A stretch of DNA of 64,000 nt from NCBI GenBank assembly GCA_002319075.1, contig NVQB01000001.1, positions 3,224,001-3,288,000 of the forward strand. Direction: 5' to 3'. The translations under genes were made by a program, and so were the position numbers. Positions 23,967 through 43,093 of the stretch are shown here, one piece after another (position 1 is the stretch's first letter; every line of letters starts with the position of its first letter). The DNA is from Sphingobacteriaceae bacterium. Its GTDB lineage: Bacteria; Bacteroidota; Bacteroidia; B-17B0; Aurantibacillaceae. A model generated the notes under the pieces. It had not been told where the DNA came from, ran no database searches, and saw only the letters and a list, made by a program, of their open reading frames with translations.

Positions 23967-24287
23967 ATGAGCAAATTAATCGTAACAGCCTGTTTTATGT
24001 TTGGAACAATTTGTCTGAACGCACAGGATGAAAAGAACATGATAGAAAGCAAACAAGACTCGGTTTATTGTTTGGTGATGAAAGACGGACTTGCTGTATT
24101 AACAAGCAGTTCGGGCAGGGTAATTACCAATGAGATTAGCATGTCTAACGGCGCAAAATTAACTCCCAAAGGTGTGCTGACGAAAAAAGACGGTAAGCAA
24201 ATTATCATGAAAGATGGTGACTGCACCAATACGCTGGGTGAGCCTATGCAAGGCAATGCCACACGAGAAAAAATAAAAAGGAATTAA
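23967..24287 (+). CDS. small exported protein, DUF6799-like
   Basis: From ATG 23967 the product has 106 residues with a clean signal peptide (MSKLIVTACFMFGTICLNAQ). The mature part, CLVMKDGLAVLTSSSG, SMSNGAKLTPKGVL and MKDGDC, shows two KDG-type repeats as in the short periplasmic DUF6799 domain; that assignment is from memory. An in-frame ATG at 23946 would add seven residues but lies before the predicted transcript start. It ends in a TAATG overlap with the PEBP gene, so the two are co-translated. Function unknown. Confidence 0.8.
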   Translation: MSKLIVTACFMFGTICLNAQDEKNMIESKQDSVYCLVMKDGLAVLTSSSGRVITNEISMSNGAKLTPKGVLTKKDGKQIIMKDGDCTNTLGEPMQGNATREKIKRN

Positions 24288-24781
24288 TGATACGTTTGTG
24301 TACATTTTTTATAGCCTTATATTTTGGCTATAAGCAGGTTAATCCTGGTCTTCTGGTGCAAAGCACTTCTTTTGCAAACACGCACTATATTCCGTACCGT
24401 TACACCTGTGATGGAGAGAATGTGAGTCCTGAATTACGTGTTACACAGATTCCAAAAAACACAAAGACACTGGCTTTAATTTTAATAGATAGTAGCGCAG
24501 CCTTTGGTGAGTTTGACCATTGGGTAGTATGGAATCTTCCGCCAACCGCTAAGATTGCCGAGAAGAGCACTGCAGGTGTTACAGGCCGCAATAGTCGCAG
24601 AGAGAATAAATACATGGGACCCTGTCCTCCCAACGGAATCCATGAGTACCGCTTTCGCCTGTATGCTTTAGATACAGAATTAGAATTGCCCGATAGTACC
24701 GGAAAAGAAAATTTAGTGAAAGCCATGCAAGGGCATGTTTTGGCAAGTGGAGAATTGGTGGGAAAATTTCAAAGGCAGTGA
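24287..24781 (+). CDS. PEBP/YbhB-YbcL family protein
   Basis: A 164-residue phosphatidylethanolamine-binding-fold protein. Motifs: YTCDGENVSPEL, LALILIDSS, DHWVVWNLPP and GPCPPNGIHEYRFRLYALD, the ligand-pocket sequence of bacterial YbhB/YbcL proteins. A hydrophobic N-terminus (about 3-15) may be a signal or anchor. The start ATG overlaps the preceding stop (TAATG). Ligand and role are not known for most bacterial members. Confidence 0.92.
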   Translation: MIRLCTFFIALYFGYKQVNPGLLVQSTSFANTHYIPYRYTCDGENVSPELRVTQIPKNTKTLALILIDSSAAFGEFDHWVVWNLPPTAKIAEKSTAGVTGRNSRRENKYMGPCPPNGIHEYRFRLYALDTELELPDSTGKENLVKAMQGHVLASGELVGKFQRQ

Positions 24782-24794
24782 TCTCAAAATTTAT

Positions 24795-24809
24795 TGGCAT
24801 CGTGTTTGC
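24795..24809 (+). promoter_or_regulatory. sigma-54 promoter of the 24837 lipoprotein gene
   Basis: TGGCATCgtgtTTGC fits GG-N10-GC exactly, with a full TTGC -12 box. Predicted transcript start about 24821; the ATG at 24837 lies 42 bases from the start of the -24 block. A TGGAGAAT motif lies 40 bases upstream, inside the PEBP gene. Confidence 0.65.
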
Positions 24810-24836
24810 CCTCTCTGAGGTAAGAGACAATAAATT

Positions 24837-25034
24837 ATGAAGAAGATCAGTTTAATCATTACAGCAATTGCACTAACACTCTGTGTAGCCTGCAATGTGA
24901 AGGGCGCCAGGGCAGAGGAAGATGCATACAATCCTTACGATACAAGCGAGCTTGAAAACGTTAACTCGGTATCGGATACTTTATATTCGATAGATACCGT
25001 CATTAAAAATTTCAAGTTGCAGGAGCTAAAATAA
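24837..25034 (+). CDS. small lipoprotein, unknown function
   Basis: A 65-residue protein with a type II signal peptide (MKKISLIITAIALTLCVAC, lipidated Cys19). It is followed by a short acidic, Tyr/Asp/Ser-rich part, with RAEEDAYNPYDTSELENV then DTLYSIDTVI. No known domain. It has its own sigma-54-like promoter and a strong terminator, so it is a single-gene unit. Small lipoproteins of this type often report on or respond to envelope stress, but nothing in the sequence shows a function. Confidence 0.75.
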   Translation: MKKISLIITAIALTLCVACNVKGARAEEDAYNPYDTSELENVNSVSDTLYSIDTVIKNFKLQELK

Positions 25035-25057
25035 TAGCAATAAAAAATCCTTTCATT

Positions 25058-25089
25058 AAAAAGCCTGACAAACACTTGTCAGGCTTTTT
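25058..25089. terminator. terminator between the small lipoprotein and the disordered-protein gene
   Basis: AAAAAGCCTGACA (25058-25070) pairs perfectly with TGTCAGGCTTTTT (25077-25089) around a 6-base loop. A- and T-runs on both sides allow it to work in both directions; the flanking genes converge. Confidence 0.88.
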
Positions 25090-25098
25090 TGATGTATG

Positions 25099-25974
25099 TT
25101 ATTCGTAATAAGCCCGATTTCTTCCAGTGTAGGAAGAGCGATCGTCGTTACTTTGGTTTTCACTGTAACGTCCATGCGCCGTTGCATCGTAACCATGCCA
25201 TTCGCCTGAACGATTTCTGCCGTTATATTCTCCATAAGACTGTTGGTCTCTGTTATTATTTTGAGAACGGCCGTGGTAGCTTTCATTGTCTGAACGCGAA
25301 GCAGAAGAGTGTTTTCCATCATAGCTGTTTCGCGAGCGTTCGTTGTTCCAGTTTCTGCCAGCATCCTGAGAGCGGGAATCAGAGTGTTGAGATTGATATC
25401 CGCGGGTATTTTCACGTGGAGAATTCCATGTGTTTCTGCCGGATGTTCGTTGCGAAGCGTCTTCGTACGATGATCTTCCGCCTCTTTGTTCTGGTGCAGA
25501 ACTTCTTCCCTGGTATTGGGAAGTGCTCGTGTCTCTGTAACGGCGGCCATCATTGTCGTTTATAGTACGCGATTCGTAATGACTGTCGTAATCACTGTTC
25601 CAATTGTAATTTGAAGGTCGTGGATCGCTGTACTCATCATTGTAACGGCCGCGATCGCTAAATTCGCTAGTGTAATCCGGATTGTAGGACCGGTTGTAGT
25701 CGTGACTGTTATAACCGCTGCGGTAATTTCCCTGGTCGTATTGATTTCTGTAGTTTCCGTTGTCATATTCATTCGTGAATTCATATCCCCGATTTTGATT
25801 TTGAGCATAATCAGATTCAGAAGTGTAACGATCAGTAGTAGTGCTATAACTATTCGGATTGCGATCGGGGTTACTGTCGTGATCGCGCGAATAATTCGAT
25901 TGGCCTTGGTAGCCGCTGTTGGAATTCCCATTATGAGATGGAGAATGGTGCCTTGATTGATTTCTGTTTTTCAT
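25099..25974 (-). CDS. intrinsically disordered Tyr/Arg/Asn/Ser/Gly-rich protein
   Basis: A 291-residue protein of very low complexity, starting MKNRNQSRHHSPSHNGNSNS. Almost every stretch is built from S, N, R, Y, D, G and Q, with spaced aromatic (Y) and Arg residues and almost no Leu, Ile or Val. There is no signal peptide, membrane segment or known domain. The minus frame stays open throughout, while the other frames give only Thr/Ile-rich shadow products. The composition is like eukaryotic prion-like or condensate-forming proteins. It converges on the small lipoprotein gene and is divergent from a membrane protein at 26141. Confidence 0.75.
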   Translation of the reverse strand: MKNRNQSRHHSPSHNGNSNSGYQGQSNYSRDHDSNPDRNPNSYSTTTDRYTSESDYAQNQNRGYEFTNEYDNGNYRNQYDQGNYRSGYNSHDYNRSYNPDYTSEFSDRGRYNDEYSDPRPSNYNWNSDYDSHYESRTINDNDGRRYRDTSTSQYQGRSSAPEQRGGRSSYEDASQRTSGRNTWNSPRENTRGYQSQHSDSRSQDAGRNWNNERSRNSYDGKHSSASRSDNESYHGRSQNNNRDQQSYGEYNGRNRSGEWHGYDATAHGRYSENQSNDDRSSYTGRNRAYYE

Positions 25975-26113
25975 AAGTTATGAGTTTTATCGATTTCCTT
26001 ACAGTGTCCGGCTTTCCTTGTCCAGACTGCAATTGCGAAATTAATTTGCAAACCCTGTTCCCTATAGGAACGGGCGCAAAAAGACTGTTTTCTGGCGAGA
26101 TTGTTGGACGTAC

Positions 26114-26128
26114 TGGCATTTTATTTGC
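26114..26128 (+). promoter_or_regulatory. sigma-54 promoter-like site at the 26141 gene
   Basis: TGGCATTttatTTGC matches the GG-N10-GC rule with a complete -12 box. Predicted transcript start about 26140, one base before the ATG, so the transcript would be nearly leaderless. A GTTCC/GGAAC inverted repeat (26057-26071) lies 43 bases upstream. Confidence 0.6.
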
Positions 26129-26140
26129 ACACTCTCTAGC

Positions 26141-26527
26141 ATGATGCAGCTAATTGATCAACTGATATGGTTATTTTTGATTGCGCTACCTGTGGCAGTA
26201 ATTGCCTGGACCGTTACGCATGAAGAAATATTTCGCGAGCCCCACGAATGGTGCGTGGAAAAAAGCAAAAAAAGCAAGTATATGGTTCAGCGCAAATTTT
26301 TTTATGTGTGGACCTGTGAATACTGTTTCAGTTTTTACGTAACGGCTCTGATACTGTTTATTACCCGTTTTAAACTTTTATTCGACGACTGGCGGGGGTA
26401 CTTAATTTCTGGTTTCGCTTTAATTTGGCTGGCCAATGTTTACATGAGTCTTTTCTTTTTACTTCGAACAGGAATAAAAAAAGAGGGCGTCGAAATTAAA
26501 ATAGAAGAAAAAGAATTGGAAAAGTGA
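26141..26527 (+). CDS. small membrane protein with a CxxC pair, unknown function
   Basis: A 128-residue protein with three predicted membrane segments (about 5-24, 60-78 and 85-108). The loop between the first two carries Cys38 and TCEYCF (CxxC, about 59-62). The C-terminus is Lys/Glu-rich and should be cytoplasmic. It recalls DUF1360-type membrane proteins, but I am not sure of the family. The start is one of two adjacent ATGs. It is a single-gene unit between the disordered protein and a receiver-kinase set. Confidence 0.75.
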   Translation: MMQLIDQLIWLFLIALPVAVIAWTVTHEEIFREPHEWCVEKSKKSKYMVQRKFFYVWTCEYCFSFYVTALILFITRFKLLFDDWRGYLISGFALIWLANVYMSLFFLLRTGIKKEGVEIKIEEKELEK

Positions 26528-26652
26528 TCAGACCCTTGCTCTTTATTGGCGATATCTGCAGCCGATGAGCAAATTATTCCCCAGAAAAAAATTCTCCAAA
26601 TAGCGTGCCAGTATTAATTTAGTTTTCTATACTTTTTATTCGCCATATCTTA

Positions 26653-26660
26653 TATCTTTG
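26653..26660 (+). promoter_or_regulatory. TAnnTTTG -7 box of the receiver-kinase operon
   Basis: TATCTTTG matches the Bacteroidota -7 consensus exactly, 19 bases before the ATG at 26680. The -33 region is only a T-run, so this would be a housekeeping promoter of moderate strength. Confidence 0.5.
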
Positions 26661-26679
26661 AAATAATTAATATTTTCTT

Positions 26680-27069
26680 ATGCTGGTTTTTTTGGTGGAT
26701 GACGATTATGAGGATCATGAAATTTTTGAAATGGCTTTTAGTAAGGCTGTCACCTCACATCAACTTGTTACTGCAGAAAACGGGATAGAGGCGATAGAAA
26801 AGTTTAAGCAGGACAAAAGTTTTAAGCCCGATATTATTTTTTTAGATGTGAACATGCCTCGCATGACCGGTAAAGAATGTGTTCATGAATTGAGAAAATT
26901 ACCTGAACTGAAGAACATACCAATGATTTTATATTCTACCCACGATAGTCAGAAAGAAGTTATTGAAGCGCAACGCGCAGGAGCTACAGATTTTATGACT
27001 AAACCAGCAAGCATATCCGAGTATACACAAGCCCTCCAGGAGATTGTAAAGAAGCATGTGAAGTCATAG
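26680..27069 (+). CDS. stand-alone response-regulator receiver
   Basis: A 129-residue single receiver of the Rcp1-like type: acidic cluster VDDDYEDHE, phospho-acceptor Asp56 in IIFLDVNMPRMTG, Ser in LYSTHDS and Lys in FMTKPAS. It starts a three-gene set with a PAS kinase and a second receiver, all on the plus strand with gaps of 4-15 bases. Such kinase-flanking single receivers normally accept phosphate from the adjacent kinase, which here is broken by a stop codon. Confidence 0.92.
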   Translation: MLVFLVDDDYEDHEIFEMAFSKAVTSHQLVTAENGIEAIEKFKQDKSFKPDIIFLDVNMPRMTGKECVHELRKLPELKNIPMILYSTHDSQKEVIEAQRAGATDFMTKPASISEYTQALQEIVKKHVKS

Positions 27070-37894: not shown

Positions 37895-37909
37895 GCAAAT
37901 CACATGCCA
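37895..37909 (-). promoter_or_regulatory. sigma-54 promoter of the STAS/SEC14 gene
   Basis: The minus strand reads TGGCATGtgatTTGC followed by A-rich sequence: full -24 and -12 boxes with GG-N10-GC. Predicted transcript start about 37883, 13 bases before the ATG. ATTCCCCA (37988-37995) lies 79 bases upstream, inside the small lipoprotein gene. Confidence 0.7.
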
Positions 37910-41617: not shown

Positions 41618-43093
41618 TTATGCTGCGGCAGATCTTCTGAAGTTTTTACTCGGAATGTTTAATTCTTCTCTGTATTTAGCAACAGTACGGCGGGCAATAG
41701 AGTAGGTTCTTTGCATTAACATATATGCAATTTGTTCATCGCTTAACGGATTTGATTTATCTTCCGTATTCACACATTCCATCAATACTTTTTTAACTTC
41801 TTTAGTACTTACAATTTCTCCGTTAGTAGTACTTAAACCTTCGGTGAATAATGATTTCATTAGTAAAGTACCGTAGGTAGTCTGAATATATTTACTGATA
41901 ACAATTCTTGATACGGTTGAGATATCAGAATCAATTTCTTCAGCGATTGTTTTTAAGATTAAAGGTTTAAGATCAGCTTCATCTCCTGTTAAGAAGAATT
42001 TTTTCTGGTGTCTTACAATTGCTTTCGCAACGGTGATCATTAGTTTTTCGCGTTGTTGTAATGCTTCAATAAACCATTTAGCACTTTCTACTTTTGTTTT
42101 GATAAAGCTGGAAGCTTCACGCATGCTTTTATCTTTTGCTTTCGAATAAGTGTTTAACATATCCGTATAATCGTCGCTTATTTTTAATGGCGGGTGTTTA
42201 GCCGAGTTTAAAAATAATTCTACTTTATCGTTTTCTACTGTTACTGAAAAGTCTGGAACAATAGTCACCGCTCTGCCAGCACTTTCTACAGAGCTTCCTG
42301 CCGGAGTTGGATTTAATTTTTTAATTTCGGATAAAGCGTCTTGTAATTCTTCGTTATCGATTTTTAGTGTTTTTTTAATGTTCTCAAAATTTCTCACAGA
42401 CAGTTCAGTCATATGGTTTTGTAAAATAGTGATAGCATTATAAGTATCTTTTGTTTTTTCTCTTTTTGCGTTTAGTTGCAGAAGAAGGCATTCTTTTAAA
42501 TCTCTGGCGCCTATGCCAATAGGATCAAGGCTTTTGATCTTATTCAAAACGCTGATCAGTTCTTCTTCACTCACAAAATCGTTTACGAAAGAGTATTCGT
42601 CGGCAATGTCGGCTATTTCACGTCTTAGGTAACCATCGTTATCCAAAGTATTAATAAGATATAAACCAATTTGTTTTTCTTTTTCAGTAATAGGTAAAAG
42701 GTTTAACTGGTTAATCAAACCAACAGTAAAATCATGACTTTCTAAAAATACCTGTTCGCGTTTTTCGTCATCTTTTGTATGGTTGTTTGCTTCGTATTTA
42801 TAATCGTCTAACGAATCACGGTCCATGTAATCTTTGTAATCATAGTCTTCTCCCAATTTAGGTTCTGCAATATAATCGTCACCGTGTTCTACTTCAGGCT
42901 CTTTATCCTGTTCATTCTCGGCTTCCGAATCGTTTTCTACGTTATCGAATTCCAACGCTGGATTAATTGCCATTTCTGCAGCTATATGCTGTTCGAGTGC
43001 GATGGTGGGTAAGCCTAATATATTTATTAGCTGAATTTGCTGGTGAGTAAGCTTTTGGGTAAGTTTTTGAGTTTGTGATTGTATAATAGCCAT
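41618..43093 (-). CDS. rpoN: RNA polymerase sigma-54 factor
   Basis: A 491-residue sigma-54. The Gln/Leu-rich region I (SQTQKLTQKLTHQQIQLINI) binds activators, an acidic Asp/Glu-rich region II spans about 52-115, core binding lies about 120-300, the helix-turn-helix about 370-395, and the C-terminal RpoN box ARRTVAKYREELNIPSKNFR contacts the -24 promoter element. All landmarks are intact. It needs an AAA+ enhancer-binding activator; none is in this window. Several GG-N10-GC promoter-like sites in the window are plausible targets. The next gene on the strand is the membrane-anchored receiver. Confidence 0.97.
   Translation of the reverse strand: MAIIQSQTQKLTQKLTHQQIQLINILGLPTIALEQHIAAEMAINPALEFDNVENDSEAENEQDKEPEVEHGDDYIAEPKLGEDYDYKDYMDRDSLDDYKYEANNHTKDDEKREQVFLESHDFTVGLINQLNLLPITEKEKQIGLYLINTLDNDGYLRREIADIADEYSFVNDFVSEEELISVLNKIKSLDPIGIGARDLKECLLLQLNAKREKTKDTYNAITILQNHMTELSVRNFENIKKTLKIDNEELQDALSEIKKLNPTPAGSSVESAGRAVTIVPDFSVTVENDKVELFLNSAKHPPLKISDDYTDMLNTYSKAKDKSMREASSFIKTKVESAKWFIEALQQREKLMITVAKAIVRHQKKFFLTGDEADLKPLILKTIAEEIDSDISTVSRIVISKYIQTTYGTLLMKSLFTEGLSTTNGEIVSTKEVKKVLMECVNTEDKSNPLSDEQIAYMLMQRTYSIARRTVAKYREELNIPSKNFRRSAAA

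Follow-up and report, generated by a model that had tools for sequence, protein, structure and literature searches.

The 64,000-nucleotide stretch of Bacteroidia DNA analyzed here (the window) carries a gene for a 291-residue protein, rich in tyrosine and arginine, that is predicted to be disordered over its whole length. Four findings are new: the protein has counterparts with which it forms a set, homology search fails to see this set, the Tyr/Arg class within it stays electrically neutral without conserving its sequence, and two members of that class lie directly upstream of a stress-type gene. We infer condensation, binding of RNA or client proteins, stress induction, and protection, and the protein probably acts as a stress-time protectant or droplet-former.

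The reading frame and its surroundings

The first-pass annotation had placed a 291-residue protein at 25099-25974; the coordinates and length hold, and the strand is the minus strand, as the plus-strand reading contains stops (Table 1). Thymine occupies the second position in 1% of its codons, the first in 24%, and the third in 35%, and in the window's 25 reference genes the second position is T in 30%; since the gap is confined to that one position, it points to selection acting on the protein, which chance DNA does not give. The codon-usage log-ratio was +0.050 in this frame and between -0.03 and -0.23 in the remaining five, synonymous codons are mixed, and no tandem array underlies the gene (one 12-mer, 2.1 copies). 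A strong hairpin lies 9 nt past the stop codon (-20.1 kcal/mol, z -6.5 on the minus strand; -21.5 kcal/mol, z -7.7 on the plus strand); it was not listed by a consensus terminator scan. On codon position 2, frame usage, and the terminator after the stop, 25099-25974 reads as a real protein gene, with one point that counts against the best explanation given below: the codon score of 0.050 lies slightly under the minimum of the 25 reference genes (0.054). An open frame that arose by chance in DNA of low complexity or in decay would be consistent with the neighboring frames at the locus, which are likewise long and open, and with the lack of a sequence homologue; the depletion of T at position 2 alone, the in-frame usage and mixed synonymous codons, the missing array, the terminator directly after the stop, and the similar proteins in relatives make it very improbable.

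Table 1. Features at the locus (window positions) and composition-matched genes at other loci (positions within each locus)
Feature	Position	Strand	Basis or remark
Gene for the 291-aa disordered Tyr/Arg-rich protein	25099..25974	minus	ORF, in-frame codon usage, AF2, no domain
Strong hairpin flanked by A/T tails; terminator common to the gene above and the convergent lipoprotein-like gene	25058..25090	both	Folding
65-aa small lipoprotein-like protein, convergent neighbor	24837..25034	+	ORF; lipobox borderline by eye
128-aa membrane protein, divergent neighbor	26141..26527	+	ORF
PEBP (YbhB-like), upstream of the lipoprotein-like gene	24287..24781	+	Pfam PF01161, E=1.6e-35
Weak candidate sigma-54-like match, GG-N10-GC	26047..26062	minus	8/10 positions; 88 nt ahead of the start of the 291-aa gene
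Tyr/Arg-type protein L065_285	L065:6563-7420		285 aa, own genome
N/Q/G/Y protein	L063:5406-7187	+	593 aa, genus tag g1
N/Q/G/Y protein	L096:5103-6503	+	Genus tag g1
N/Q/G/Y protein	L099:8748-10355	-	Genus tag g1
N/Q/G/Y protein	L095:5697-7256	-	Genus tag g1
N/Q/G/Y protein L116a	L116:3325-4764	-	Genus tag g6
N/Q/G/Y protein	L118:3434-4903	-	Genus tag g6

The gene had been described as lying between a small lipoprotein and a membrane protein, among genes with sigma-54-like sites. Its position stands, with the lipobox of the small neighbor merely borderline by eye. The lipoprotein-like gene had no match among 59 other genomes; the membrane protein is well matched (E≤6.1e-51) in three of the 99 other genomes searched, and no disordered gene lies beside those homologues in the three relatives (L004-L006, L010-L012; 11.7-20 kb fetched around them). 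A DUF6799 gene (Pfam) and, by inspection only, thioredoxin and Mla-type transporter genes are also nearby; Rfam gave no match in 24600-26700.

Exact TGGC-N7-TTGC sites precede the lipoprotein-like gene (24795-24809, plus strand) and the membrane-protein gene (26114-26128, plus strand), and the window holds five such sites compared with 2.2 expected by shuffling, a count of five being reached in 7 of 100 shuffles. Sites at 24795, 26114, and 46781 on the plus strand and at 37895 on the minus strand were observed 27-42 nt ahead of start codons. Together with a sigma-54 factor (rpoN-like) gene at 41618-43093, assigned by inspection only, the exact sites make an active sigma-54 regulon that includes envelope proteins seem likely. 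The description of nearby sigma-54-like sites is thus right for the plus-strand neighbors and not for the gene itself, whose best match agrees at 8 of 10 positions; scores of at least 8 occur in 6 of 146 control upstream regions in the sense direction and in 2 of 146 in the antisense direction, and sigma-54 control of this gene is not supported beyond that one weak site.

Composition and predicted disorder

Seven residues (S 16.8, N 14.1, R 12.4, Y 11.0, D 8.9, G 7.9, and Q 6.2%) make up 77% of the protein, which contains 32 Tyr, 36 Arg, 2 Lys, no Cys, and only 4 F/L/I/M/V among its 291 residues. Its longest run free of F/L/I/M/V/C is 153 residues, and the runner-up among the window's ORFs of at least 100 aa reaches 30. 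Because the GRAVY is -2.22 and even the most hydrophobic 19-mer averages only -1.67, the protein is without a signal peptide or transmembrane segment. Searches of Pfam, NCBIfam, PHROGs, and PDB sequences gave no matches at E≤10 and hence no conserved folded domain, so the first-pass picture of a chain built almost wholly of these seven residues, with no hydrophobic core, signal peptide, or domain holds throughout. AF2 run on the single sequence gave a mean pLDDT of 41 and no residue at or above 70, which is weak evidence of disorder, as many proteins score low confidence when run without an alignment; low sequence entropy, the lack of a hydrophobic window, and the GRAVY agree with it, and disorder over the whole length is predicted.

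The regular spacing of Tyr and Arg claimed for the chain survives shuffling. In evenness the Tyr gaps surpass 96% of shuffled sequences (gap variance, P=0.037) and the Arg gaps 99.7% (P=0.003), and the evenness of aromatics as a group gave P=0.0005 with 2,000 shuffles and 0.0006 with 5,000. The Tyr interval is mostly 4-5 residues in the first half of the protein and mostly 8-16 in the second.

Composition-matched proteins in relatives

A search of 119 related genomes with the protein returned nothing at E≤0.1, and one of 99 genomes at E≤10 returned two weak matches without a composition match; GTDB contigs, viral contigs, plasmids, and phages yielded nothing convincing. Weak matches at loci L002, L015, and L016 (E 0.2-0.48) were rejected as relatives, as no composition-matched ORF is found there. 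Searching phages with the relative at L119 gave nothing convincing, and searching PDB sequences with the 593-aa relative (L063) gave nothing. Codon patterns (60 codons without T at position 2, and a variant adding two TAY codons) uncovered two further such proteins in the gene's own genome, of 593 aa (L063) and 285 aa (L065), neither of which was reported by a protein search of that genome at E≤10. As homology search misses these, absence by homology means little for such proteins, and we rejected "orphan" as a conclusion. Among the matches listed, the first part of 1013 overlapping pattern positions, the genome has at least three such genes, and it may have more. The TAY pattern was run on 60 genomes, on a further group of 15 (12 of them repeats), and on 21 genomes of the family's other genera; many of its matches are out of frame, in ordinary genes, and 14 regions (9 + 5) were picked by eye among the matches listed. 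Composition-matched proteins, which the first-pass annotation had proposed seeking in relatives, are therefore present both in the same genome and in related species.

We assigned these proteins by inspection to an "N/Q/G/Y type" and a "Tyr/Arg type". The pattern selects Tyr content and low hydrophobicity and the label selects Arg content; neither selects net charge. Composition statistics exclude L098 (truncated), and L104 and L105 duplicate the contigs of L099 and L096. The N/Q/G/Y class comprises six full-length proteins from two genera (466-593 aa), and alignment above composition-preserving shuffles in all 15 of their pairs (Z 8 to 54) marks them as a true family; neither L063 nor L118, the two that were scanned, had a Pfam match. 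A C-terminal ERG[RN]NEF-like motif was seen by eye in several of them. Compared with L063, L095, L096, and L099, the 291-aa protein gave Z of 3.2, 0.3, 1.3, and 1.2, which does not place it in this family.

It belongs instead by composition to the Tyr/Arg class, which has eight members in three genera: itself, L065_285, L100, L101, and L102 (g1), L116b and L117 (g6), and L119 (g4). These are 228-350 aa long, with 10-13% Tyr, 12-17% Arg, less than 3% Lys, and no Cys. Clear alignment was obtained for the L100-L119 pair only (Z 8.6), and none of the seven others aligned with the 291-aa protein above shuffles (Z -0.3 to 1.9). Net charge per residue lies between -0.022 and +0.004 in all eight, nearer zero than independent charges give (sum of z squared 1.54, n=8, P=0.008); the same test on the six N/Q/G/Y proteins was not significant (P=0.26). 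The Tyr/Arg class thus maintains charge neutrality while sequence is not maintained. Aromatics are evenly spread (P<0.05) in 5 of the 8 Tyr/Arg proteins and in all 6 N/Q/G/Y proteins.

Other recurrent motifs were noted by eye. RDS.GRF[TS] occurs near the N-terminus of three Tyr/Arg-type proteins (L102:1991-2680, L116:6387-7511, and L119:4609-5610) and is lacking in the 291-aa protein. A Tyr/Glu/Asp-rich stretch with a terminal W[SK][DNH]RE-like motif recurs in many species (G032:C115, G033:C8, G012:C13, G008:C74, G010:C326, G029:C115, G021:C195, and G037:C58); as the G012 copy (L120) lies inside a 1585-aa reading frame, this stretch may belong to a large protein.

Where the context is recognizable, the disordered set sits among genes of general-stress type. 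In 2 of the 8 Tyr/Arg-type genes, from two genera, a DUF892 gene follows on the same strand, 35 nt downstream at L101 (g1; L101:515-2009) and 88 nt downstream at L119 (g4; L119:4609-6444), with PF05974 matches at E=6.6e-52 and 9.1e-52. YciF and YciE are DUF892 proteins, and these two relatives, with a DUF892 gene directly downstream, resemble the enteric yciGFE locus, where the disordered YciG is encoded together with YciF and YciE. The N/Q/G/Y genes L063, L096, and L099 adjoin DUF4142 genes (PF13628 E=2.6e-33 for the neighbor of L063, to which the other two are 65-66% identical), in a common order of HPPD-like gene, DusB-like gene, disordered gene, and DUF4142 gene. UBA2475 (L106:7477-9573) keeps the order DusB-DUF4142-PurL and is missing the disordered gene, a natural empty site which indicates that disordered genes come and go. 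At L116 a cupin gene is flanked by genes of the two classes, which are no more than 2 kb apart; near the outer-membrane-like gene that adjoins L100, relative G011 (L101) has a Tyr/Arg gene and G003, G030, and G031 do not. The gene in the window has neither a DUF892 nor a DUF4142 neighbor, which counts against a stress reading.

GGCA[TC] occurs no more than 110 nt upstream of 9 of 10 disordered genes compared with 36 of 146 controls (Fisher P 6e-5), in a count that includes the truncated L098 and leaves out the later finds L116, L117, L118, and L119. Because the motif was picked after viewing these genes, 3 of the 10 are orthologues, and the gene in the window is the sole one without it, the link is suggestive only, and that exception counts against the best explanation. 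Before control genes TGGCA[TC] appears 28 times in sense and 6 times in antisense orientation (146 regions; window plus 20 fetched loci), a strand bias that marks it as promoter-like in general; it is perhaps a degenerate -24/-12 promoter or the site of another regulator. It was often seen without a TTGC element.

Candidate functions and known systems

We give an even chance to the explanation that this is a cytoplasmic disordered protein, conserved by composition, that serves as a protectant under stress or as a scaffold of condensates, by way of Tyr-Arg and Tyr-Tyr contacts. Its Tyr (11%) and Arg (12%) would be evenly spread stickers and its polar S/N/D/G/Q residues spacers, in a chain with hardly any Lys or aliphatics, no Cys, and a net charge near zero. 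Most likely, abundant chains would attract one another through these contacts, and probably also RNA or client proteins; a reversible condensed or shielding matrix would then form and preserve cell components in stress, e.g., during water loss. The first-pass reading of the protein as condensate-like is borne out in its disorder and its sticker-like Tyr/Arg composition; a sigma-54 link of the gene is not supported beyond the one weak site. According to the available portion of PMC10406433, the Y/R/G-rich Lge1(1-80) of yeast condenses at 1 uM, Y>A substitution abolishes this, and R>K raises the required concentration ~10-fold; the available text of PMC10375482 gives the saturation concentration of FUS-family proteins as inversely proportional to the product of Tyr and Arg.

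In a coarse single-chain Monte Carlo model with CALVADOS 2-style parameters, run briefly in two code versions with different charge cut-offs and converging only to the extent that half-averages inside one run differ by up to ~1 nm, the protein had an Rg of 3.5-3.9 nm and free-fit exponents of 0.39, 0.44, and 0.39 (three runs). Two runs per variant gave exponents of 0.54 and 0.50 with Y changed to S and of 0.55 and 0.52 with R changed to K; a single run of a Gly-Ser chain gave 0.51, and four Tyr/Arg relatives gave 0.23-0.43. This rough model indicates a self-attracting chain that would expand when Tyr or Arg is replaced, which supports self-attraction through these residues and does not prove condensation.

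A hydrophilin- or LEA-like soluble protectant, an extended and dispersed chain that holds water and shields enzymes without condensing and in which Tyr and Arg are incidental, is possible, though it leans toward the unlikely. The protein shares with hydrophilins, YciG included, a Gly content above 6% (7.9%), a very low GRAVY (-2.22; the rule is < -1), and disorder, so that two of the three composition rules in the accessible part of PMC4190154 agree; its relatives have stress-type neighbors, and YciG of the yciGFE locus is termed a hydrophilin in the part of PMC5437024 available. The third rule, a mean hydrophilicity above 1, is missed on the Hopp-Woods scale (0.53), chiefly owing to Tyr, and the outcome hangs on the rule's scale (inverted Kyte-Doolittle gives 2.22). 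Moreover, 11% Tyr and Arg in place of Lys are unnecessary for such a task, the aromatics are evenly spread, and the rough model is compact, not extended. YciG itself, of 60 aa in the available text of PMC5437024, differs in that the protein studied here lacks the KGG repeat (no Pfam match at E≤10), is about five times longer, is Tyr-rich, and has a Hopp-Woods mean below 1. The protein is not filed as a hydrophilin.

We consider unlikely, and offer tentatively, the broader idea of a bacterial counterpart of stress granules, in which several stand-alone Tyr/Arg and N/Q/G/Y chains per genome, almost free in sequence and constrained in sticker spacing and electroneutrality, would be induced together with DUF892/DUF4142-type stress genes and would condense together, keeping RNA and proteins in store while the cell dries out or starves. 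Quite unlikely, in our estimate, is a disordered RNA chaperone or granule component whose Arg and Tyr touch RNA and whose main task is not self-condensation. RS, GR, and RN are the commonest residue pairs of the 291-aa protein, and hnRNPA2 has a Tyr/Gly region of low complexity to which RNA binding is ascribed in PMC9067507. The net charge of the 291-aa protein lies slightly below zero and not above it, no RNA-metabolism neighbor was recognized, and Pfam, NCBIfam, and PHROGs reveal no accompanying RNA-binding domain, which counts against our preferred explanation as well. A secreted or surface matrix protein (biofilm, adhesin, or amyloid) is highly improbable: Tyr- and Asn-rich chains are found in extracellular matrices, but this protein has no signal peptide or hydrophobic segment, and none was seen by eye in the other Tyr/Arg-type sequences.

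FET-type low-complexity domains have evenly spread aromatics, and they and Lge1(1-80) resemble the protein in Tyr, Arg, and small polar residues and in disorder. The protein differs in being bacterial and a whole protein, with no RRM, zinc finger, or folded partner; of the FET-type traits it has the Tyr/Arg-rich disordered chain with even aromatics and lacks the linked folded RNA-binding domain. SWFGD-domain proteins (NCBIfam NF033157) are Arg/Asp/Tyr-rich disordered proteins of Bacteroidota; membership was rejected on zero NCBIfam matches at E≤10, and NF033157 lay above the family cut-off in 0 of 60 genomes, the gene's own included. Rho combines a folded structure with a disordered part, whereas the Tyr/Arg and N/Q/G/Y proteins have no folded part. 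The Tyr/Arg class also differs from the Bacteroidetes prion-like proteins of proteome surveys in not being dominated by N/Q. Rho of Bacteroides thetaiotaomicron condenses, according to the accessible part of PMC13269538, and Lge1(1-80), in the available portion of PMC10406433, carries +0.075 charge per residue and non-uniform tyrosines where the 291-aa protein is near-neutral. We file the protein between hydrophilins and condensate-forming low-complexity domains, as a stand-alone bacterial Tyr/Arg disordered protein. Searches of open-licence literature, with few subscription papers, for bacterial, Bacteroidetes, or Bacteroidota Tyr-rich low-complexity proteins (PMC6400439 included) turned up no description of such proteins.

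These genes mark a blind spot, in that ordinary homology searches call them orphans despite like genes in the same genome; a codon pattern that lacks T at position 2 and includes TAY detects genes that homology search misses. Most work on Tyr/Arg sticker proteins concerns the tails that RNA-binding proteins of eukaryotes carry. Bacterial proteins composed in this way from end to end, with nothing folded attached, would be a clean natural test of function by composition alone, and they would be a simple source of condensing or desiccation-protecting polymers.
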